Positions 8,487-42,372 of a stretch of DNA of 64,000 bases are shown piece by piece; within the stretch, counting starts at the first letter, position 1, and each line of letters starts with the position of its first letter. Location: assembly GCA_001950395.1 (NCBI GenBank), contig BDLO01000001.1, forward strand, positions 1,711,979 through 1,775,978, read 5' to 3'. The notes beneath the pieces were generated by a model. That model saw only the letters and a program-made list of their open reading frames with translations. It did not search any database and was not told the origin of the DNA. The DNA comes from Coriobacteriaceae bacterium EMTCatB1. Lineage in GTDB: Bacteria; Actinomycetota; Coriobacteriia; Anaerosomatales; Anaerosomataceae. Position numbers and translations under genes: made by a program.

Positions 8487-8583
8487 GGAGGCGGATGGGT
8501 CCTGGTGGGCTCCGCGGTCTTCAAAACCGTCGTGGGGCGTGAAGAGCGTCCCGGGTGCGTTCGATTCGCACACGCCTCCGCCA
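8487..8583 (+). tRNA. selC: tRNA-Sec, anticodon UCA
   Basis: A 97-nt tRNA with a long acceptor arm (GGAGGCGG paired with CGCCTCC and the following G), an anticodon loop CTTCAAA carrying TCA at 8521-8523, a long variable arm and a T-loop TTCGATT. The terminal GCCA is encoded in the DNA. The anticodon reads UGA. The gene lies 62 bases after selB and its 3' end nearly abuts the end of the convergent photolyase gene at 8588. Confidence 0.95.
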
Positions 8584-14655: not shown

Positions 14656-15615
14656 GTGCCCGAGCCTCGGCTGCTCGACCGGCTCCGGACCGCGCTTCGG
14701 GCGCGACACTACAGCCCGCGCACCGAGGCGGCGTACTGTCTGTGGGCCGAGCGCTTCATCAGGTACCACGGCATGCGCCACCCGGCGGAGATGGCCGAAG
14801 CGGAGATCAACGCGTTCCTCACGCATCTGGCGATCGACCTGCACGTGAGCGCCTCGACGCAGAATCAGGCGCTCGCCGCCCTGCTGTTCTTGTACCGCCA
14901 CGTCCTCGGTCGCGAGATCGGAACGCTCGACGTGGTGAGGGCCCGGCGGCCGGCGCGTCTGCCCGTCGTGATGACCCGGGCAGAGGTACGTGCGGTGCTC
15001 GACCGCATGCACGGTCGGGAGCAACTGATGGCGTCGCTGCTCTACGGGTCGGGTCTGCGGCTCGCCGAGTGCGTGCGGCTGCGCGTGCTCGACCTCGATT
15101 TCGAACGTGGGGAGATCGCCGTTCGCAGCGGCAAGGGAGCGAAGGACCGCGTGACGATGCTCCCGGCTGCCGTGCGCGACCCGCTTCGTGCGCACCTTCT
15201 GAGCGTGAGGGCGACGCACCAGGCCGACCTCGCGGCGGGCTGGGGCCGGGTTCCGCTGCCCGGAGCGCTCGACCGCAAGTACCCGAACGCGTCGGCGGAG
15301 TGGCGCTGGCAGTGGGTCTTCCCGCAGGCGCGGCGGTGGCGCGACCCGGTGACAGGCGAGCAGGGACGGCACCACGTCGATCCGACGATCCTGCAGCGGG
15401 CGGTCAGACGCGCCGTGCTCGAAGCGGGCATCACCAAGCACGTCGGCTGCCACACCTTCCGGCATTCGTTCGCCACGCACCTGCTTGAGAGCGGCTACGA
15501 CATCCGCACGATCCAGGAGCTGCTCGGCCACAAGGACGTGAAGACGACGATGGTCTACACACACGTGCTCAACACGGGCGCCTGCGGCGTGCGCAGTCCG
15601 ATGGACGCTCTGTGA
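14656..15615 (+). CDS. intI: Integron integrase (tyrosine recombinase)
   Basis: A 319-residue tyrosine recombinase. The catalytic set is visible: [13 protein letters not shown] (Arg), [17 protein letters not shown] (His-x-x-Arg), [17 protein letters not shown] (His and Tyr). It also carries the insertion found only in integron integrases, between the Arg and His motifs: [18 protein letters not shown], then [16 protein letters not shown]. The GTG start has GGGAGGA ten bases upstream. It is expected to excise and insert cassettes at attC sites. Its 3' end faces the array, so attI should lie just downstream, although no clear attI was found. Confidence 0.93.
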
Positions 15616-15667
15616 GCGGCAGACCGACGGCGGTGCCGAGCGCAGGGCGCGAACACCACACGGAACC

Positions 15668-15783
15668 GCATAACAGCCCTGCCTCCAATGCAGCGCCTGC
15701 TTGCAGGGCATGCGGCTGCTACTTATACTGAAGTGGCAAGCCGCGCAAAGGGATTACGCGGTTCCGCAGAAGCAGTGTTAGGC
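15668..15783 (+). other. attC-like site A, next to the integrase
   Basis: A 116-nt imperfect palindrome from GCATAAC (15668-15674) to GTTAGGC (15777-15783). The ends pair as CGCATAACA with TGTTAGGCG, and an inner arm pairs near GCGGCT with AGCCGC around a central TATACTGAAGT. It has no gene between it and the integrase, so it is either the attC of an empty cassette or part of the primary attachment site. Confidence 0.6.
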
Positions 15784-15861
15784 GTGGCCGCAGTGACGCT
15801 GCGAATGACCGCGACAAGGGTTTACAATGTCAGATGCGCGTGGTATCAACTAACCAACATC

Positions 15862-15906
15862 CCCCGGGCTGCGGCTCGGGGCGCGAAGCCGCCGCAAGGC
15901 GGCTTC
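15862..15906 (+). other. Tandem hairpins in the leader of the first cassette gene
   Basis: CCCCG (15862-15866) pairs with CGGGG (15877-15881). Right after it, GAAGCCGCC (15885-15893) pairs perfectly with GGCGGCTTC (15898-15906) around a GCAA tetraloop. They end 21 bases before the ATG at 15928. No T-run follows, so a leader or RNA-stability element is more likely than a terminator. Confidence 0.5.
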
Positions 15907-15927
15907 TGCACATCTTGGGGGAAGAGC

Positions 15928-16602
15928 ATGACGCAGGCCCAGCCACCGACGCGAGTCAACGTCTACTTCGACGGCTTCAACTTCTACTACGCGGCTTTCG
16001 TAGGCGTTGGGGGCGGTCCGGGACCTTACGATGGCTACAAGTGGCTTGACCTCAGGGCATACGTCTCCGCCGTACTCGGCGACTCCTTCGATGTCCGCAC
16101 CATCAGGTACTTCTCGACGAAAGTGAAGCCGACCCCGAACGATCCGGACAAGCATCTCAGACAAGATGCGTACTTCCGTGCGCTGGCGGCACACTCGCAT
16201 GTCGACATCCATTCTGATGGTCAGTTCCGCAAGCGGCAGAAGCGAGGCAGGCTCATCCAGCCGGGCGCGCAGCCCGGCATCGTTCGGGTTGAGGTGTGGG
16301 AGGAGAAGGGCGCAGACGTCAACCTCGCTAGTTGGCTGATTTACGAGGCCTGCCAGGGCGCCTTCGAGGCTGCGGTCGTCGTTTCGGACGACTCAGACTT
16401 GATCGGTCCCGTGAAGATGGTCCAGGAGCGGCTCGGGAAGGATGTCTTCGTCATCCACCTGCGGAATCGCCGGAGCTCTTTCGCGCACACCGCCAAGCAC
16501 GTCTATCGCGGAGATAAGACTCACTTCTTCGCCAAGAACCAGCTCCCGCAAACGGTCGTTCTACCCACTGGGAAGACGGTATCCAAGCCCGCTCCCTGGT
16601 AG
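15928..16602 (+). CDS. Cassette gene 1: NYN-domain (PIN-like) RNase family protein
   Basis: A 224-residue protein with the NYN/LabA-like nuclease fold. It has NVYFDGFNFYYAA near the N-terminus (first acidic site), KGADVNLASWLIYEA in the middle, and VVVSDDSDLIGPVKMV (acidic cluster) near residue 155. These acidic residues normally bind Mg2+ for RNA cleavage. It starts at ATG 15928 with GGGGGAAGAG before it, after a structured leader. It is the first gene-bearing cassette, next to attC site B. A role in defence or RNA decay is inferred from the family only. Confidence 0.8.
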   Translation: MTQAQPPTRVNVYFDGFNFYYAAFVGVGGGPGPYDGYKWLDLRAYVSAVLGDSFDVRTIRYFSTKVKPTPNDPDKHLRQDAYFRALAAHSHVDIHSDGQFRKRQKRGRLIQPGAQPGIVRVEVWEEKGADVNLASWLIYEACQGAFEAAVVVSDDSDLIGPVKMVQERLGKDVFVIHLRNRRSSFAHTAKHVYRGDKTHFFAKNQLPQTVVLPTGKTVSKPAPW

Positions 16603-16625
16603 CGCGACGCAACGACGAGCGGCAC

Positions 16626-16724
16626 GCCTAACCCCGGCATCCACACAGACGCTGCGCCGCGTGTGCTAGACTCAACTGGAGCGGCATCGCGGCGCAGCGC
16701 TGGTGATGCCGAAACACGTTAGGC
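16626..16724 (+). other. attC site B
   Basis: Runs from GCCTAAC (16626) to GTTAGGC (16718-16724), 99 nt. The outer arms CGGCATCC and GATGCCG pair, and the inner arms GCTGCGCCGCG and CGCGGCGCAGC form a long stem. The unpaired middle contains TAGACTCAACT. This is textbook attC architecture. Confidence 0.88.
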
Positions 16725-16762
16725 AGCCATAGGCTCGACCGGCATCGTGGGGAGGGATTCGG

Positions 16763-17104
16763 ATGCAGGCACTTGCCAGTCTGAATCTCGCACTAGCGTT
16801 CGCGCTGGAGCTCGCGATGCTCGCCGCGTTCGCCTTCTTCGGCTTCCGGATCACCGATCATTTGATTGTGCGCTGGGTGCTGGCGATCGGGCTCCCGGTA
16901 CTGGTTGCAGGGTTGTGGGGCATTCTGCTCGCGCCCAAGGCGACGCACCGGCTTCCCATGGTGCCGGGGATCCTGCTCTCGCTAGGCCTGTTCCTTCTCG
17001 CCGCGGTGGCGCTGTACGTCTCAGACCGGCCGGGTCTGGCCATCGCGATGGGGGCCGCTGCGATACTGCACGCTGCGCTCGCGTTCGCATGGGATCAGCG
17101 GTAG
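16763..17104 (+). CDS. Cassette gene 2: YrdB-like (DUF2568) membrane protein
   Basis: A 113-residue protein with four predicted membrane helices (residues about 8-28, 32-54, 67-86 and 90-108). Segments such as ELAMLAAFAFFGFR and WGILLAPKATHRL match the YrdB/DUF2568 family, whose function is unknown. Related genes are common integron cassettes. GGAGGG lies about 13 bases before the ATG. It is flanked by attC sites B and C. Confidence 0.75.
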   Translation: MQALASLNLALAFALELAMLAAFAFFGFRITDHLIVRWVLAIGLPVLVAGLWGILLAPKATHRLPMVPGILLSLGLFLLAAVALYVSDRPGLAIAMGAAAILHAALAFAWDQR

Positions 17105-17139
17105 TGGTGCGGTGAGGTCGGCTCTAGCCCGGGCCTGCT

Positions 17140-17226
17140 GCCTAACAAGCGCATCCAGCTAACGGCCAGGAGCGCTAGACTTGTTGAAGGCGCGTTGGCC
17201 GCAGCCGATGCGCTAATACGTTAGGC
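17140..17226 (+). other. attC site C
   Basis: Runs from GCCTAAC (17140-17146) to GTTAGGC (17220-17226), 87 nt. The outer arms GCGCATCC and GATGCGC pair; the inner arms CGGCCA and TGGCCG pair. The middle holds TAGACTTG. Confidence 0.88.
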
Positions 17227-17243
17227 AGAGCAGGGAGAACACG

Positions 17244-17776
17244 GTGATTCGCTATATCTCGTATCCGCGAACTCAACCACCACCGGACTTCGCTACCCAG
17301 GTGGTGTCGGTCTTCGAAAGCACGAGCATGAGATTGGGACCGTTGCCCTGAATAAGGGGCTAACTAGTGATGAGGTCCTGGCAGTTCTGGCTCAGGACCT
17401 GATTCAACTTGGCTTCGAGGTCGAGCAGGGCAAGACGGCGGTTGACAAGATTGAGCGGCCGGTGTTCTTCGGCGAGAACGGTCAGCCGACCCTTCGCTAC
17501 CAGGTTGATGGATATCATCCTAAGTGGCGCTGCGGTATCGAAGTTGAGGCTGGACGTGCCTGGATGGGTAATGCAGTCTACCGGGACCTCATCCAGGCAC
17601 TTGTCATGGTTGATCTTGATTGTCTGTGTCTTGCAGTCCCGCAACAGTACAAGTACAAGTCTGGTGGTCGTTTGATGCACAGCTGCGACTTTGATAACAC
17701 GCGGGATGTACTCGACGCACTCTACGGACACTCGCGCGTGCAGCTGCCCTACGGCTTGCTGCTAGTCGGCTACTAG
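17244..17776 (+). pseudogene. Cassette gene 3: frameshifted PD-(D/E)XK-like nuclease
   Basis: The frame from GTG 17244 (MIRYISYPRTQPPP when read) carries on to about 17320, then the protein continues in another frame (HEHEIGTVALNKGL) to the stop at 17776. One missing C in AAGC(C)AC near 17320 would join the halves into about 177 residues. The C-terminal half has YQVDGYHPKWRCGIEVEAG followed by NAVYRDLIQAL, spaced like the acidic pair of PD-(D/E)XK or BglII-like nucleases; this assignment is by pattern only. Its G+C is clearly lower than its neighbours'. It may be a dead gene, or a sequencing error may have removed one base. Confidence 0.65.
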
Positions 17777-17785
17777 CTCCTGCCT

Positions 17786-17802
17786 GCCGAACCCGCGCTT
17801 CC
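17786..17802 (+). other. attC site D, left half, split by an IS
   Basis: GCCGAACCCGCGCTTCC follows the cassette 3 stop and matches the left arm of its neighbours (compare AACAAGCGCTTCCAG in site F). It stops where the IS110-group element begins and resumes at 19141. Confidence 0.72.
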
Positions 17803-17826
17803 TCAGTGTCACTCTGCCCCCGTGGG

Positions 17827-18011
17827 CTACCCGATGGGAGTCGGGTAGGCTCGAATCCGGCGGCGGCTGACCCACCGCGCTTCTGTCACCTCTTGAGGGG
17901 TTGACCGTCAGCTGTCACGTCCCCCGCCGCCGGGTACCGAGGGGTCGCCGTCGTGACCTGATAGGTGCCTGGCCAAGAGGCCGCAGCTAAGGCGTGTCCG
18001 CCGCCGACCCC
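17827..18011 (+). ncRNA. Candidate bridge RNA (target- and donor-guiding RNA) of the IS110 element
   Basis: The left-end non-coding region folds into three parts. First, CTACCCGA (17827-17834) pairs with TCGGGTAG (17841-17848). Second, CCGGCGGCGG (17857-17866) pairs with CCGCCGCCGG (17924-17933), enclosing an internal loop and a small hairpin. Third, GGGGTCG (17941-17947) pairs with CGACCCC (18005-18011). In the second part, CCGCGCTTC (17875-17883) equals the attC left of the insertion (17793-17801), and GTCAGCT (17907-17913) is the reverse complement of AGCTGAC on its right (19141-19147). This is how bridge RNA target guides work. The donor guides are not clear. Confidence 0.62.
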
Positions 18012-18042
18012 CACCGCGCAAGACTCGGCGGAAGGGACAGCG

Positions 18043-19128
18043 ATGATCGTGATCGGCATCGACCCGCACATGAAGACCCACACGGCGGTCGCGCTCGAAG
18101 CAGCGACCGGGGGTGCGCGCAGGTGAGCGGACCGTGACGTGCGACGAGGAAGGACAGGGCGAGCTGCCCGCCTGGGCCCGTGGTCTTGGCGATGGGCACG
18201 TCTTCGCCATCGAGGACTGCCGGTACGTATCCGGACGTCTCGAGCGCTGCTTTTCCCCAGGGGCGAGGTCGTCGTGCGTGTCCCGCCCAAGCTGATGGCA
18301 GGAGCGCGCGCCAGTGCCCGCACCTACGGCAAGCCCGACCCGATCGATGCGGAGCGCGTCGCCCGCACCGCGCTTCGTGAGCCGAGCCTCCCCTGGGCAT
18401 CGCTGTCAGGAGCCGAGCACGAGGTCCGGCTGCTCGTCGACTGCTGCGACGATCTCGTTGGAGAGTGCGCACGCACCCAGAAGCGCCCGCGCTGGAACTG
18501 CCACGACCTCGAGCTCGCTCTCGAGATCCCGCCACGCGTGGTAGACCGCTACGTGTGGCTCGACCGTCTTGAGGGTTTGCTGGCGGCGCTTCCGGACACC
18601 ACCAGGAAGCGCAGCGCGCTCCAACAGGTCAGACGCTGTCGCGACCTCGCCACCGAGATCCGTGCTCTCGGGCGCGAGATCCGCGACCGCAAGCGGGCCC
18701 TGGCGCCTGAGCTCATGGAGATCCCGGGCTGCTCGGCTGTCTCAGCTGCTAACCTCTTCGGTCAGACCGCGGGTGCCTCGCGCTTCCGCAGCGAGGCGGC
18801 TTTCGCGATGCACGCGGGCACCGCTCCGCTGCCGGTCTCCTCGGGCAAGAGCGAGCGTTATCGGCTGAACCGTACCGGCAACCGCAAGCTCGACTCGATC
18901 ATCCACGTGATCGCGGTGACCCAGGCGCGTATGCATCCGTCGGCAATCGCCTTCATCGAGCGCAAGCGCGCCGAGGGGGTGAGCAGCCGAGAGGCGCTCC
19001 GGTGCTTGAAGCGTCACATCGGACGAGTGCTCTACAAGACGATGGCGTGGGCCGAGAAGAAGAGATCCACACCCGTTGTCCACGTCGATTTCTGGCCGAG
19101 TCTGATAGCTGTCGCGGTGTGGGATTGA
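18043..19128 (+). pseudogene. IS110-family transposase, disrupted by at least two frameshifts
   Basis: The frame opens at ATG 18043 (MIVIGIDPHMKTHTAVALE, first acidic residue of the DEDD domain) and stops at 18124. The family sequence continues in a second frame (LPAWARGLGD, FAIEDCRYVSGRLER) to about 18250, then in a third from GEVVVRVPPKLMAGAR onward. That part has DPIDAERVART, and a C-terminal transposase_20 domain with IPGCSAVSAANL and SSGKSERYRLNRTGNRKL, which holds the catalytic serine. With two indels, active transposase is unlikely unless ribosomes shift frame. Confidence 0.8.
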
Positions 19129-19140
19129 CACAGGAGCAAC

Positions 19141-19210
19141 AGCTGACTCATGCACGCGCTGTGCTAAGCTCAAGCTGCTCGTTCGCGGCTGAAGCACAGA
19201 GACGTCATGC
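19141..19210 (+). other. attC site D, right half
   Basis: AGCTGACTC resumes the site after the IS. The middle (GCTAAGCTCAAG) and the right arm (GCGGCTGAAGCACAGAGAC) align with site F (GCGCAGCCGAAGCGCAAAGAC). The final box is GTCATGC (19204-19210) instead of GTTRRRY, so the crossover end is degenerate. Confidence 0.65.
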
Positions 19211-19270
19211 ACGCTGCTGTCAGAGGCAGGCGGCAGGATTCGCAACAGCTACTTCGGCGGAAGGCGACGC

Positions 19271-20170
19271 ATGGGTTCTAGCGCCACAGCAGTCATTGAT
19301 CGAATTGTGGCAATGCGGACAGCGGCCACCACAATCGAGAACGCGGATGGGGCATCAGGAGATGTCCGTGAGGTAATCGATTCGATTCGGGCCGCGTACC
19401 ATCGGGACTGGACAAGACAGAAGCTGACCTTTGCCCGGGAGTTCCTCTCGCGGACGTGGGCAGGTATTCCCTTGCCGGTCTTGTCGGTTTGCGGCCACGG
19501 CACTCAGGAAATTCGCTATAGCGCTTATCTCGCCTACTTCCTCGACGGCTCAAAGCCACATGGCCTCGGCACTCGCTACCTTGATGCCCTCCTGGCGTTC
19601 TTGAGGATCACCGGCATCGATACCTATCAGGCAATCGTTGAGACCGAGAAGTGGCTCGGCCAGATTCCCGGGAAGTCGAAGCCGGTGAGCTGCTACTGCG
19701 ACGTCGTCATCACCTGCGGGGACCTCGTCTTGTTCATCGAGAACAAGATTAAGAGCGGCGAAAGCGCAAGTCCGAACAGCGAGGCGAGCCAGCTACGGCG
19801 ATACGACGAAGCTATTCGCGGGAATCCGCTCTTCGCCAACAAGGAGCTGGTGCGCATCTTCCTCACCCCTGGCGGTCGGGAATCCTCCCGGTCACCCAAC
19901 TGGCGTGGTGTCTCCTATGGCGACCTCATTGGAGTTGGAATCGGCGTGCTGCGAGACGGCGGTCTCTCAACTACCGCTCGAGAGAATCTGAAGCGATTCC
20001 TGATCGATCTCTCACTTGGGCCACTGGATAGGGCAGAGGACGAGATCCAAACGATGGTTGAGCTCGCACAAGCGGCGACAGGCTCGGGGGCGCACTTCAC
20101 GGACCGATTGCGCTTCGATCAGGCAGTCGGACGCAATTCGTTGCTCGTGAACTTACTGATGGAGGGATGA
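19271..20170 (+). CDS. Cassette gene 4a: PD-(D/E)XK nuclease superfamily protein
   Basis: A 299-residue protein. Around residues 139-158 it shows CDVVITCGDLVLFIENKIKSGE, which matches the D...(D/E)xK core of PD-(D/E)XK nucleases (PDDEXK_4 type: Asp, then ENK). SQLRRYDEAI follows, as in that family. The N-terminal ~100 residues are helical and unassigned. The ATG at 19271 has GGCGGAAGG upstream. Its TGA overlaps the ATG of gene 4b, so one cassette carries two coupled genes. Such pairs often act as defence or toxin systems; that is inference. Confidence 0.7.
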   Translation: MGSSATAVIDRIVAMRTAATTIENADGASGDVREVIDSIRAAYHRDWTRQKLTFAREFLSRTWAGIPLPVLSVCGHGTQEIRYSAYLAYFLDGSKPHGLGTRYLDALLAFLRITGIDTYQAIVETEKWLGQIPGKSKPVSCYCDVVITCGDLVLFIENKIKSGESASPNSEASQLRRYDEAIRGNPLFANKELVRIFLTPGGRESSRSPNWRGVSYGDLIGVGIGVLRDGGLSTTARENLKRFLIDLSLGPLDRAEDEIQTMVELAQAATGSGAHFTDRLRFDQAVGRNSLLVNLLMEG

Positions 20171-20706
20171 TCGTGGACCTGAGCGAGAGCGGCAGCCACT
20201 ACTTGGCCAACTACTACCTCTTGGAGCAGACGCGAGAAGAGGTTCATCGCTTTCTGGAGGGCATCGCGAAGGACTTCTCTGCACTGGTGGAGGAGCATCT
20301 CAAGCTCAAGTCGGATGGTCTCCTAGAGTTCAGTCTGTACGTACAGAAGGGCGGCGGCTATGTCGAGTTCGGGATCAAGATGAGGCCGGACGTCGTAGCG
20401 CCTCCTGAGATGAAGGACTGGAAGTACTCGATCATCTATCGGGATGCCATGCGAACCCAGAACTTGTCGAGTTCGACGGAGGCCAGAGTCTACGGCTGGA
20501 CACCGAAGGCGCTGTCCCGGCAGAAGGATCAAGTTGAAAGGGTGGCAAAGGTACTCGAACTGCAACGTATGCCCTACGATGAGGTTACAGTCGATCTCGT
20601 GGACTCGCCCGTTGACGAAGTCGTCGACGCCATAGCGCGGCTGTTCGTTGGCTACTACGATGACTACGTGAGAATCATTCAAGAGCTGCTGAAGGAAGCA
20701 CCGTAG
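20167..20706 (+). CDS. Cassette gene 4b: unrecognised partner protein
   Basis: A 179-residue acidic protein, starting at an ATG that overlaps the stop of gene 4a by four bases. It has an N-terminal helical part (YLLEQTREEVHRFLEGIAKDF), a beta-rich middle (SLYVQKGGGYVEFGIKMRP) and a C-terminal helical part with aromatic residues (ARLFVGYYDDYVRIIQELL). I recognise no family. Overlap and shared cassette suggest that it works with the nuclease, as regulator, inhibitor or sensor. Confidence 0.65.
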   Translation: MIVDLSESGSHYLANYYLLEQTREEVHRFLEGIAKDFSALVEEHLKLKSDGLLEFSLYVQKGGGYVEFGIKMRPDVVAPPEMKDWKYSIIYRDAMRTQNLSSSTEARVYGWTPKALSRQKDQVERVAKVLELQRMPYDEVTVDLVDSPVDEVVDAIARLFVGYYDDYVRIIQELLKEAP

Positions 20707-20711
20707 CAGGT

Positions 20712-20774
20712 GCCCAACCCTGGCTTCCAGCGGACGCCGCTTCGCGGCGCAGCTGAGGCCAAGACACGTTAGCT
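20712..20774 (+). other. attC site E
   Basis: A short 63-nt site from GCCCAAC (20712) to GTTAGCT (20768-20774). Outer arms GGCTTCCAGC and GCTGAGGCC pair, and inner arms CGCCGC and GCGGCG form the hairpin. Its core is almost the same as the truncated site J at 23901. Confidence 0.82.
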
Positions 20775-20789
20775 GGACGGGGTGTTCAG

Positions 20790-21197
20790 TTGGGCTTCCT
20801 CTGGTCTGACGCATGGATTCTGTCCGCCATTGCCTGCGCGCAGGCCAACGGCGGGTCTACTTTGGCGGAGGTCCTTCTCTTCGCAGACGGGTTGAACCAC
20901 ACGCTGCCGCTAGATGGCGAGCTGCACGGGGCGCTCTCTCGACTGACGGAAGCAGGCTACGTGTCAGAGGACGCGGGGGAGTTCCGGGTAACGGACCGGG
21001 TTCCGGTTGATGTGAGGGATCCGGCTGATGCGGCGGAGTTCCTCAGATCGGAGCCTTGGACTCAGGAGGTCAACGTGCGCGATTCCCGCAATGATCGAGT
21101 CTATCCGGGTCTGACGGACGAGCGGATTCGCGCTGCTTATGTACAGTACGAACGTGCCTGGCGCGCGCTGATGCGCGGGCAGCGAGACACCAGCTAA
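20790..21197 (+). CDS. Cassette gene 5: hypothetical, winged-helix-like
   Basis: A 135-residue product starting at TTG 20790 (GGACGGGG upstream). The first 60 residues (SDAWILSAIACAQANGGSTL, then DGELHGALSRLTEAGYV and FRVTD) have the helix pattern and beta-wing of a winged-helix domain; the rest is unassigned. Similar short proteins occur as integron cassettes, but I cannot name the family. The stop codon overlaps the left box of attC site F, which is common in compact cassettes. Confidence 0.6.
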   Translation: MGFLWSDAWILSAIACAQANGGSTLAEVLLFADGLNHTLPLDGELHGALSRLTEAGYVSEDAGEFRVTDRVPVDVRDPADAAEFLRSEPWTQEVNVRDSRNDRVYPGLTDERIRAAYVQYERAWRALMRGQRDTS

Positions 21198-21280
21198 CAA
21201 GCGCTTCCAGCCGACGCGCAGGAGTCGTCGGCTAGACTGAGAAGTAGTTGGCGCGCAGCCGAAGCGCAAAGACGTTAGAG
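21192..21280 (+). other. attC site F
   Basis: Runs from AGCTAAC (21192-21198) to GTTAGAG (21274-21280). Outer arms GCGCTTCC and GAAGCGC pair; the middle includes GCTAGACTGAG. Confidence 0.83.
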
Positions 21281-21300
21281 CCACCGTCGCGAGGAGAAGC

Positions 21301-21987
21301 ATGAAGCGCATCGTCGCCCCCACGAAGGGTGCGAAGGACTGGAGGCGACTTCTCGCCAGGCCGGGTCTGCACTGGCGCGAGGGCCGCTCTGCGATGACCC
21401 TGGCTCAGTCGTGGGAGGCGGCGCATCCGTCCGCGCCGCCGGAGGTCGAGCGAGCCCTGCAATCCTCCGGCGACCCGCTTCTGATGGACCTGTCCCTGCT
21501 GCTCGCTATCCCGGAGTACCAAGTCGACCTGCCCGGCGGACAGCGCCCCAGCCAGACAGACGTCCTCGCGCTGATGCGCGGACGGCAAGGCGTGGTCGCC
21601 GTCGCCGTCGAGGGCAAGGTCGATGAGCCGTTCGGGCCGACCGTCGGCGAGAAGCGATCAGAGCGCTCCGCGGGGGTCGATGAACGACTCGAGTGGCTGA
21701 TCGGCTTCCTCGGCCTCGGGGAGTGCCCGGATGCGATCAGGTACCAGCTGCTGCACCGCACCGCATCAGCGCTGCTGATCGCCCAGCAGTTCGACGCCAA
21801 GGCGGCCGTGATGCTGGTCCACTCCTTCAGCCCGAGTGGTCTGTGGTTCGATGACTTCAGCGCCTTCGCCGCTCTCCTCGGCGCTGACGCGGCGGTGGGC
21901 ACCGTGTCGCGCGTGGAGCGGGAGGACGGAGTCCCGTTGTTCATCGGGTGGTGCAGGGGCGACGAGCGCTTCCGGACGAGGCTCTGA
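21301..21987 (+). CDS. Cassette gene 6: putative PD-(D/E)XK-like protein
   Basis: A 228-residue protein with GAGGAG before the ATG. The segment PSQTDVLALMRG, then VVAVAVEGKVDEPFG (residues about 83-112), has the D...E-x-K spacing of PD-(D/E)XK nucleases. The start (IVAPTKGAKDWRRLLARP) resembles uncharacterised DUF6946-like cassette proteins. A conserved-looking RLEWLIGFLGL follows. The stop TGA overlaps the left box of attC site G. Function unknown; nuclease-like fold is inferred from the motif only. Confidence 0.62.
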   Translation: MKRIVAPTKGAKDWRRLLARPGLHWREGRSAMTLAQSWEAAHPSAPPEVERALQSSGDPLLMDLSLLLAIPEYQVDLPGGQRPSQTDVLALMRGRQGVVAVAVEGKVDEPFGPTVGEKRSERSAGVDERLEWLIGFLGLGECPDAIRYQLLHRTASALLIAQQFDAKAAVMLVHSFSPSGLWFDDFSAFAALLGADAAVGTVSRVEREDGVPLFIGWCRGDERFRTRL

Positions 21988-22074
21988 CAACGGCCAGCGG
22001 TAGCGCGTCTCGGTGCTAGAATCGGGCAAGGCGACGGAGCGCGGGCGCTCCGCTTAAACCGAAGAACGTTAGAT
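21985..22074 (+). other. attC site G
   Basis: Runs from TGACAAC (21985) to GTTAGAT (22068-22074). AGCGGTAGCGC on the left pairs with GCGCTCCGCT on the right; the middle holds GCTAGAATCGGG. Confidence 0.78.
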
Positions 22075-22086
22075 GGAGCCGCAGAC

Positions 22087-22575
22087 TTGGCGATTGGAGC
22101 AGGAGTGACCCCGGCTGACTGGGAGTGTCCGAGCTGCGGCGAAACCAACTCTACCAAGCGCACCGGCCGCGCGCGCTTCTGCGACGACTGCAAGACGGCG
22201 CGGTCGCTCTATCGGACTACAGCCGCCAATCTCAGGAGCGGCTTCAATCGCACAAACAAGGGCTCGTGTGAACTCGAAATGGACATCGACGAATTCTGCA
22301 AGTGGCGCAAGGAGCAGATACTCAAGTGCCACTACTGCGGAATCACGGAGGCGCAGATTCCACAGGTCCGCATGAAGAGTCAGATTCAGCGCGACGTTCG
22401 TGTGATGGGCGTTGATCGGCTGGACAGCTCGAAGGGTTACACGGCAGACAACCTAGCTCCGTGCTGTTTCGTCTGCAACCAGATCAAGGGGGATCGCTTC
22501 TCTGAGGAGGAGATGAAGCAGATTGGGGCCGGCATCACCGCTGTCTGGGAGAAGCGACTCGAGGAGCTCGGCTAG
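22087..22575 (+). CDS. Cassette gene 7: HNH endonuclease
   Basis: About 162 residues. It has an N-terminal zinc-binding knuckle (WECPSCGETN, RFCDDCK) and a C-terminal HNH-type core: KCHYCGI, GVDRLDSSKGYTADNLAPCC and FVCNQIKGD. The pattern CxxC...GVDR...YTxDNL..CC..CNxxKGD is characteristic of HNH nucleases with paired cysteines for zinc. Start is uncertain: TTG 22087 and GTG 22105 both have GGAG sites in range. It lies between attC sites G and H and may act on invading DNA (inference). Confidence 0.82.
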   Translation: MAIGAGVTPADWECPSCGETNSTKRTGRARFCDDCKTARSLYRTTAANLRSGFNRTNKGSCELEMDIDEFCKWRKEQILKCHYCGITEAQIPQVRMKSQIQRDVRVMGVDRLDSSKGYTADNLAPCCFVCNQIKGDRFSEEEMKQIGAGITAVWEKRLEELG

Positions 22576-22589
22576 ACCGGCATCGGCCC

Positions 22590-22694
22590 ATCTAACCCCG
22601 GCTTCGAGCAGAAAGCGCGCCCCGCGAAGCGGTAGACTGAACTGCACAGAAGCGCGCGGGGGCGCGCTTCAGCTCAAGCCGAAACACGTTAGAA
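22590..22694 (+). other. attC site H
   Basis: Runs from ATCTAAC (22590-22596) to GTTAGAA (22688-22694). CGGCTTCGAGC pairs with GCTCAAGCCG with one extra C, the extrahelical base typical of attC; GAAAGCGCGCCCC pairs with GGGGCGCGCTTC. Confidence 0.88.
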
Positions 22695-22722: not shown

Positions 22723-23403
22723 ATGGGGACGGACGCGAATGAGAACCCCGGATGTCTGGGGTTGGTCTTGCGACTCTTTGGAATCGGGGCTGAGGTACCT
22801 CCCTCGGACAAGTCGCTCCCATATCGCAGGCGCGATGACTTCCTGTCTCCGGCGGAGCTGTCCTTCTATCGGGCATTGAGCGCTGCCGTGGGAGCGCAGG
22901 TTCATATCTGCCCCAAAGTGAATCTCGCCGATATCTTCTTCGTGGTGAAGCCCAACGAGAACAAGGGCGCCCGGGGGCGCATCGCTCAGAAGCATGTCGA
23001 CTTCCTCTTGTGCGACTCGCAGTCGATGAAGCCGCTGGCCGGCATCGAGTTGGACGATTCCAGCCACGCACGAGCGGCCCGCCAGGAGCGGGACGCATTT
23101 GTCGATGGGGTCTTTGCCGCAGCGGCGCTTCCGCTGGTGCGTATTCCTGCCGCTGCGAGTTACAGTCCGGCAGATCTGGCTCAGAAACTTGCGGCACATC
23201 TGCCAGGAACGACTTCGGCGGTCTCATCGGCGACCGGGGCGCCCGCGGCCGAAGCCGCTGTCCCGGCTGGTAGCGATCCGATGTGTCCGAAATGCGGAGT
23301 GCCCATGGTGCTTCGGACCGCGGGCAAAGGCGAGCAGGCCGGTCGACAGTTCTATGGCTGTCCGAATTATCCGAAGTGTCGGGAGACCCGACCAGTCGGA
23401 TAG
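22723..23403 (+). CDS. Cassette gene 8: DUF2726 protein with topoisomerase-type zinc finger
   Basis: A 226-residue protein with AGGGAGG before the ATG. Residues about 36-150 form a DUF2726 domain (FLSPAELSFYRALSAAV, then VDFLLCDSQSMKPLAGIELDD), which has a PD-(D/E)XK-like core. A linker rich in Ala leads to a C-terminal C4 zinc finger (MCPKCGVPMVLRT...FYGCPNYPKCRET) like those of bacterial topoisomerase I. The combination suggests nucleic-acid binding and perhaps cleavage. It lies between attC sites H and I. Confidence 0.8.
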   Translation: MGTDANENPGCLGLVLRLFGIGAEVPPSDKSLPYRRRDDFLSPAELSFYRALSAAVGAQVHICPKVNLADIFFVVKPNENKGARGRIAQKHVDFLLCDSQSMKPLAGIELDDSSHARAARQERDAFVDGVFAAAALPLVRIPAAASYSPADLAQKLAAHLPGTTSAVSSATGAPAAEAAVPAGSDPMCPKCGVPMVLRTAGKGEQAGRQFYGCPNYPKCRETRPVG

Positions 23404-41348: not shown

Positions 41349-41456
41349 TCCGCGGATGCGGACGGCCTCCGAGTCCCGGAGTCCTACGGCGGCTGGTCAC
41401 CGCTAGGGAGTCGGGACCGATAGGGTCGAGGCAGGAAACTCCTCGGCCTCCCGTGT
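41349..41456 (+). promoter_or_regulatory. Moco/Tuco-type riboswitch
   Basis: The leader before tupA contains the conserved Moco RNA blocks in order: CTCCGAGTC, GGCGGCTGGTCACCGCT, AGTCGGGACCGATAGGGTC, and GAGGCAGGAAACTCCTCGG followed by CCTCCCG. The CCGC/GCGG arms and the GAGG/CCTC arms pair. The motif is known to control molybdenum and tungsten cofactor genes, which is what follows. Confidence 0.85.
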
Positions 41457-41472
41457 TCGGAAAGGAGTCGAC

Positions 41473-42372
41473 ATGACAGACCGCCGCATTTGGCTTGCCA
41501 AAAGGCAAGCCCCCGTTCTCGTCGCCGTGCTGCTGGCCGTGCTGCTTGCCGTTCTGCTTGCCGTTCTTGGGGGCTGCTCGTCCACGCGAACAGAGAGCAA
41601 GCCGCCGCAGCAGCCCAAGCCGCCGCAACGGATCGTTCTCGCCACCACCACCTCGACGCAAGACTCCGGCCTGCTCGACGTGCTGGTGCCGGCCTTCGAG
41701 AAGGCCTACCCGGCGTACACGGTGGACGTCGTCGCCGTGGGGACGGGCGAGGCGCTGCGCCTAGGCGAGCAGAAGGACGCGGACGTGCTGCTCGTGCACG
41801 CGCGCGCAGACGAAGAGGCGTTCGTCGCCAAGGGTTTCGGGATCGAGCGCCGGGACGTCTGCTACAACCGCTTCGTGCTGGTGGGGCCGGCGGCCGATCC
41901 TGCGGACGTGGCGCACGCGTCTGGCGCCGCCGACGCGCTCGCTCGTATCGCGAAGAAAGGATCGCCGTTCGTGTCTCGCGGCGACGATTCGGGGACGCAC
42001 AAGAAGGAGAAGTCGCTGTGGGCTGCCTCAGGCGTGAAGCCGGGCGGCGCGTGGTACATCGTCACCGGGCAGGGCATGGGTGAGACGCTGAAGGTAGCCT
42101 CGGAAAAGCAGGCGTACACGCTCACTGATGAGGCCACGTACCTCACGATGAAAGACTCGCTCGACCTCTCGCTGCTCCTTGGAGACGACCCGTCGCTCTA
42201 CAACCAATACGGCGTCATCCCGGTGACTGGCGCACGCAATGAGGAAGGTGCGCGCGCGTTCGCGGACTGGATCTGCGGACCAGAAGGACAGCGACTCATC
42301 GGTTCGTTCGGTGTCGATCGTTTCGGGCGCCCGCTGTTCACGCCGAATGCGCCAGGAGGCGAGAAGTCCTGA
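41473..42372 (+). CDS. tupA: Tungstate-binding lipoprotein
   Basis: A 299-residue periplasmic binding lipoprotein. The signal (VLVAVLLAVLLAVLLAVLGGC) contains a fourfold LLAV-type repeat before the lipobox Cys near residue 36. The mature protein opens with ATTTSTQDSGLLDVL, the anion-binding motif of TupA, and has PFVSRGDDSGTHKKE and GAWYIVTGQGMGETL. The ATG follows AAAGGAG right after the riboswitch. It should bind tungstate tightly and hand it to TupBC. A perfect hairpin lies within its first codons. Confidence 0.92.
   Translation: MTDRRIWLAKRQAPVLVAVLLAVLLAVLLAVLGGCSSTRTESKPPQQPKPPQRIVLATTTSTQDSGLLDVLVPAFEKAYPAYTVDVVAVGTGEALRLGEQKDADVLLVHARADEEAFVAKGFGIERRDVCYNRFVLVGPAADPADVAHASGAADALARIAKKGSPFVSRGDDSGTHKKEKSLWAASGVKPGGAWYIVTGQGMGETLKVASEKQAYTLTDEATYLTMKDSLDLSLLLGDDPSLYNQYGVIPVTGARNEEGARAFADWICGPEGQRLIGSFGVDRFGRPLFTPNAPGGEKS
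41492..41511 (+). other. Perfect hairpin within the first codons of tupA
   Basis: GGCTTGCC (41492-41499) pairs with GGCAAGCC (41504-41511) around an AAAA loop, about 20 bases into the coding sequence and close to the riboswitch. It might affect ribosome loading. Confidence 0.45.

Follow-up and report, generated by a model that had tools for sequence, protein, structure and literature searches.

An IS110-group insertion sequence in an integron attC site, with a predicted bridge RNA whose guides match the site

A 64,000-nucleotide stretch of the Coriobacteriaceae bacterium EMTCatB1 genome (contig BDLO01000001.1; the window) carries an insertion sequence (IS) of the IS110 group that splits an attC site of an integron cassette array. 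The non-coding left end of this IS contains two short segments that match the attC sequence on either side of the insertion, in the manner of bridge-RNA target guides, and among related copies these segments co-vary with the sites occupied. With a probability of about 0.9, the window IS is a decayed member of an IS110-group clade specialised on integron attC, in Coriobacteriia/Anaerosomatales and relatives. The original prediction, made from the letters of the window, was of an RNA-guided element programmed for attC, and it is supported by the guide matches, the co-variation, a conserved RNA fold and 20 copies with attC-like flanks.

Both target guides match their target in the window copy. 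The left guide (17875–17883) and the target to the left of the insertion (17793–17801) both read CCGCGCTTC, as predicted. On the right, GTCAGCT (17907–17913) had been proposed to be the reverse complement of AGCTGAC (19141–19147); this is so, and the match extends 1 nt further, to 8 nt, with GTCAGCTG as the reverse complement of CAGCTGAC (19140–19147). The proposed 10-bp closing stem is formed by CCGGCGGCGG (17857–17866) and CCGCCGCCGG (17924–17933), and the consensus fold of 14 copies leaves both guides unpaired between this stem and an inner hairpin (17885–17905), on the opposite sides of an internal loop to which they had been assigned. The role of chance was examined by holding the loop fixed and taking 58,400 window positions as mock insertion points. 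The left match reached 9 or more at 28 positions and the right match 8 or more at 47; none of the 58,400 combined the two.

The IS, 1338 bp in length, could equally be placed at 17802–19139, because the empty site reads TTC-C-AGC, with a single C between TTC and AGC, and no target duplication is required to account for the insertion. When joined, its flanks align without gaps over approximately 80 bp with intact attC sites of family members L158, L160, L161 and L162 (at most 86% identity), and the right part of the split attC has a 65-bp match to approximately 30 attC sites of the family. These family-level sites were used as the reference, an orthologous empty cassette having been sought in the same genus and not found. 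The left end comprises 240 bp and the right end 12 bp, a layout shared by the other copies, with a sub-terminal inverted repeat of 5 bp (TGACA, 19126–19130; TGTCA, 17807–17811). The transposase gene contains two compensating frameshifts, being read in the frame of 18043 to approximately 18123, in the next frame to approximately 18260 and then in the original frame. Together with the eroded donor pairing described below and the eroded R''/R' of its attC, these changes identify the window IS, at the sequence level, as a relic. No second copy was found in its own genome, and no relatives were found in viral contigs.

The left ends of 14 copies were aligned and consensus-folded. The fold starts with a 5' hairpin, followed by an outer stem and the loop that carries the left guide; after these come an inner hairpin, the right guide and a closing strand. 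In 26 pairs of this fold 96.4% of cells pair and nine pairs have changed on both sides, with compensatory changes in four pairs of the outer stem and four of the inner hairpin. Double-changed cells numbered 20, against 6.5 ± 2.0 in shuffled alignments, and none of 500 shuffles was as high; shifting the pairing partner by 1–3 columns reduced pairing to 22–50%. This comparative fold is decisive; folding of the single left-end sequence (z = -1.75) is not decisive alone, and a search of the left-end region against Rfam returned no match.

Two segments downstream of the target loop are identified, from sequence correspondence, as the left and right donor guides of the predicted bridge RNA. In the clade, the left segment equals the right end of the element. 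The right segment, of CTAAG type, changes along with the left end (TTAG, TTGG, TTAA), with 53/56 matches over 14 copies (p = 8e-4). In the window copy, the donor guides mismatch its own ends at three positions. The consensus program gives a non-canonical fold for the donor loop, so that the stem there is provisional. A left end that did not fold as a bridge RNA would have spoken against the original prediction; comparative support, and a donor loop also matching the element's own ends, indicate that it does fold as one.

Further copies were sought with the window transposase fragment and its intact homologue P0001 as queries, both in genome contigs and in genome sets from the class (398), the order (69) and the phylum (396). 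Nineteen further distinct copies with readable ends were obtained, with transposase identities of 65–77%, and a clear gap separates them from the next IS110 elements (at most 57%). Hosts, where named, were Coriobacteriia, Anaerosomatales or Actinomycetota without finer placement; the host of the most divergent copy, L004, is of the same phylum as the window and of a different class. In each of the 14 left flanks that could be read, the sequence is that of the R''-side arm of an attC-like site: AAC, a short arm closing TTC, ATC or CTC, then mostly one C or G preceding the element. The complementary arm (L'/R') with a GTTRRRY-like R' is carried by 15 of the 18 right flanks, the exceptions being the window copy (GTCATGC), L113 (ATTAG) and L033 (no arm). 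When the flanks were joined, a junction-spanning attC was scored in 9 of the 13 copies with both flanks (eight at 14–20, L113 at 10); the joined sites of the window copy and L037 have the arms but miss the box patterns of the finder, and that of L033 did not pass. The control consisted of 606 kb from 71 loci of IS110 elements more distantly related, which gave 29 attC matches of at least 14. Homologous copies in unrelated targets, the other finding that would have told against the prediction, were not seen among the readable flanks of the 20 copies, apart from the right flank of L033. L033 is the only full copy with no attC arm in that flank, for which a later rearrangement or an assembly fault may be responsible.

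Co-variation of the two guide segments with insertion sites had been proposed as a check on the original prediction, and it is seen. Guides and sites were re-dealt among copies in permutations of 13 left pairs, 14 right pairs and 12 complete pairs. Left guides matched their own left flanks at 104/117 positions (93.2 ± 2.5 expected, p = 4e-4), right guides their own sites at 90/112 (81.3 expected, p = 0.004), and the complete pairs gave 172 matches against 155.9 expected (joint p = 2e-4); without L004 the joint p was 0.003. The co-variation was measured inside a set composed entirely of attC sites, and is therefore not explained by every site being attC. L004 occupies a different type of attC (CAGCGGCTC/AACCGAC), and its guides are altered accordingly, matching at 9/9 and 7/8 in the same register. 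A pattern search of genome G306 for further attC sites fitting these guides gave mostly non-attC matches. L034 and L116, 96.3% identical over 1342 bp and with the same guides, occupy two different attC sites. The left guide matches at 7–9 of 9 positions in every copy.

To place the insertion point within attC, the bottom strands of ten restored sites were folded. In six of them (L004, L035, L037, L038, L041 and L116) the insertion adjoins the one base left unpaired in the R''-L'' arm, and in L039 and L126 it lies 1–2 bases away from that base; no canonical attC fold was obtained for L034 or for the decayed window site. In the window array, the unpaired base occupies the equivalent position in the attC sites at 16628 and 22592 and is not cleanly seen in the other three. 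By its position in these predicted folds, this base is the counterpart of the conserved extrahelical G of the L'' box, which steers strand choice by IntI (PMC2727003).

The transposase has the features of the IS110/IS1111 family, namely the DEDD_Tnp_IS110 and Transposase_20 domains (in the intact P0001, PF01548 at 9e-20 and PF02371 at 4e-18) and the G--P----SG motif, which reads GTAPLPVSSG in L004 and in the window copy. A tree of 62 rows was built with ISEc21 as the IS110 reference and IS4321 of R751 as the IS1111 reference; searches of plasmids by name found no named IS1111-attC element. The attC copies group in a single clade (100/99), to which L005 is the closest (95/89), and a branch with support of 100/98 unites the attC clade and ISEc21 against IS4321, on long branches that leave its depth uncertain. 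The longer non-coding end lies upstream of the transposase gene (tnp) and the right end is short, as in the IS110 group. The guide order is also that of the IS110 group: the 5' guide equals the top strand and the 3' guide is complementary to it, as in ISEc21. An AlphaFold model of the L033 transposase (mean confidence, pLDDT, 86) had as its best matches the bridge-RNA complexes of ISCro4 (2e-12) and IS621 (6e-12). From the tree, the end layout, the short sub-terminal repeats and the guide order, the attC clade belongs to the IS110 branch and not to IS1111, in agreement with the layout originally described.

The original prediction also held that known attC-targeting elements belong to the IS1111 branch, and the literature agrees (PMC11187229, PMC11616780, PMC11089894). 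ISKpn4, ISPst6, ISPa21 and ISPa25 are given as members (Tetu & Holmes 2008 and Post & Hall 2009, as quoted in PMC11187229 and PMC11616780). Like the window clade, the IS1111-attC group enters one arm of a cassette attC and uses a guide RNA (seekRNA) derived from its non-coding region (NCR), a likeness at the level of the arm. In that group, however, the NCR is downstream of tnp and the sub-terminal repeats are 7–17 bp, whereas the window clade has an upstream NCR and 5-bp repeats, the IS110 guide order, a transposase grouping with ISEc21, and Actinomycetota hosts; insertion into attC is the shared trait. IS621 (PMC11208160) and ISEc21 (PMC11187229) resemble the window clade in having a left-end RNA, a target loop with the left guide 5' and the right guide 3', a donor loop matching the element ends, a DEDD + PF02371 transposase and no need of target duplication; the transposase, at 359 aa, is within the range of the ISEc21 cluster (345–385 aa). 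Neither targets attC: IS621 inserts into REP (repetitive extragenic palindromic) elements (PMC11208160) and ISEc21 into a conserved part of IS3-family tnp genes (PMC11187229). A full-text literature search found no report of attC targeting by the IS110 group, with subscription papers mostly outside the search and ISfinder not covered.

Actinobacterial IS110 relatives (L005, L042 and others) share the right end TTGACATAGGAGNAAC with the window clade, at transposase identities of 46–57%. These relatives are presumably IS900/IS116-like. Unlike the window clade, 25 of 59 such elements with the right end TTGACANAGGAG (among L042–L112) lie outside attC and end just before the ATG or GTG of an open reading frame (ORF). 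In 22 of those 25, exactly 6 nt separate AGGAG from the ATG or GTG, so that the element would provide a ribosome-binding site to the gene.

Under the attC-specialised reading, the left end would be transcribed as a bridge RNA. The 5'-side guide would pair with the R''-L'' arm on its bottom strand, as far as the TTC preceding the extrahelical base, the 3'-side guide with the top strand beyond that base, and the donor loop with the joined right and left ends of an excised circle, whose predicted junction is GGAGCAAC-TTAGTGTC. By RNA-guided strand exchange, the DEDD/serine recombinase would insert the circle at the extrahelical base of L'', in constant orientation and with no target duplication. 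Such insertion would split the R''/L'' arm and thereby probably lock the cassette. Guide sequences would shift along with the attC sequences met by the lineage, and guide complementarity alone could confer attC specificity.

Several observations weigh against this reading. The permutation tests ignore kinship among copies, most of which come from draft metagenome-assembled genomes, and L033 has the armless right flank noted above. The right guides of L035, L041 and L116 match at only 4/8 positions, weakly past the first 3–4 nt; their matches are mostly at the core side, and IS621 by default uses only 4 bp on its right side (PMC11208160). The window genome contains 13 sites within two mismatches of the 15-nt guide core, of which only 3–4 are attC (two in the window array, one at 383 kb and an attC-like site at 387 kb). 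Nine of the 13 lie in long open frames, and complementarity alone is therefore not unique to attC. Selection against gene disruption may suffice to explain why copies are seen only in attC.

These same observations bear on whether the folded attC hairpin contributes. The bridge RNA might merely set the register, with attC specificity coming mainly from the folded single-stranded hairpin, or from a host factor at attC, and the guides being secondary. The nine non-attC sites that the guides fit yet no copy occupies, the 4/8 right guides, and an insertion point that coincides with the base marking the folded form would all suit this explanation. Co-variation of the guides with the individual attC sequence speaks against it, as do the relatives IS621 and ISEc21, which act on linear double-stranded targets (PMC11208160, PMC11187229). 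In addition, every near match outside attC falls within an open frame, where selection would often remove an insertion. We consider this explanation unlikely. About as improbable is a joint mode in which the clade recognises attC by its guides together with the folded hairpin or extrahelical base, as an RNA-guided recombinase for a structured, transiently single-stranded target.

Far less probable is a single ancient chance insertion into attC that the integron integrase later spread within a cassette, the copies being in attC by descent. The copies do form a single clade, in hosts that commonly have integrons, but the attC halves differ between copies and belong together at each junction, the near-identical L034 and L116 occupy attC sites that differ, and the guides track the site. 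That the match is a coincidence in an ordinary IS110 element, which the GC-richness of both attC arms and loop might favour, is the least probable reading given the mock insertion points, the unchanged register of L004 with a different sequence, and the joint permutation result.

Table 1. Positions in the window of the IS, its predicted RNA features and the surrounding integron
Feature	Position	Strand	Evidence or remark
IS110-group IS in attC site, 1338 bp	17803..19140	+	joined flanks give an unbroken attC; ends conserved among copies
Left part of split attC	17787..17802	+	decayed R'' (CGAAC for CTAAC) and first half of L'' (CCGCGCTTCC)
Right part of split attC	19141..19210	+	remaining L'', central region, L', decayed R' (GTCATGC replacing GTTRRRY)
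Left end with predicted bridge RNA	17803..18042	+	14-copy consensus fold
5' hairpin of predicted bridge RNA	17830..17845	+	helix 1, 100% of cells paired
Target-binding loop	17855..17935	+	comparative fold; outer stem 17855-17866 with 17924-17935, inner hairpin 17885-17905
Left target guide CCGCGCTTC	17875..17883	+	direct reading; equals target top strand left of insertion
Right target guide GTCAGCTG	17907..17914	+	direct reading; reverse complement of CAGCTGAC right of insertion
Predicted left donor guide ATAGGTGC	17961..17968	+	clade ATAGGAGC equals right end ATAGGAGC; window copy eroded relative to ACAGGAGC
Predicted right donor guide CTAAG	17987..17991	+	reverse complement of left-end CTTAG (window end CTCAG); p = 8e-4 over 14 copies
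IS110 transposase (DEDD + Transposase_20), inactivated	18043..19128	+	NF033542 7.8e-31; PF02371 7e-17
Short right end	19129..19140	+	read from sequence
Integron integrase intI of the array entered by the IS	14656..15615	+	TIGR02249 2.3e-141, above cut-off
attC, intact	16628..16722	+	
attC, intact, last before split attC	17142..17224	+	
attC, first after IS	20714..20772	+	
attC	21194..21278	+	among the two best genome matches to the guides (1 mismatch in 15)
attC	22592..22692	+	

The IS lies in an integron, with intI and an attC array at 14656–22692. Five intact attC sites flank it, and the scan gave no matches outside the array or in four shuffles of the same stretch. The window thus holds a complete integron in an Actinomycetota chromosome; IntegronFinder 2.0 reported none in Actinobacteria (PMC9024848). 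At the level of the order, intI was above cut-off in 46 of 69 genomes, and was present in 11/15 IS carriers and 36/54 non-carriers, a comparison that carries no information on a link between the two. A second group of attC or attC-like sites (L166, L168) lies at 383–387 kb of the same genome, distant from the window intI. The cassette genes at 19271–20170, 21301–21987 and 22723–23403 include a PDDEXK_4 nuclease-like protein, DUF6946, and DUF2726 with zinc ribbons, and the ORF between intI and the first strong attC (15688–16602) has a weak NYN-domain match, under cut-off. Elsewhere, the window contains a selenocysteine tRNA and a molybdenum-cofactor riboswitch (8487–8579 and 41355–41484, respectively).

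Among bridge-RNA elements, these results point to separate origins of attC targeting in the IS110 and IS1111 branches, and to guides that, in the window clade, change as host attC sequences do. The 12–14 natural guide/site pairs are ready data on guide tolerance, with the left guide used over nearly its full length and the right often over its first 3–4 nt. Insertion at the base needed by IntI suggests a route to frozen cassette arrays. Intact relatives of the window IS exist, and the clade offers compact recombinases naturally aimed at integron cassettes.
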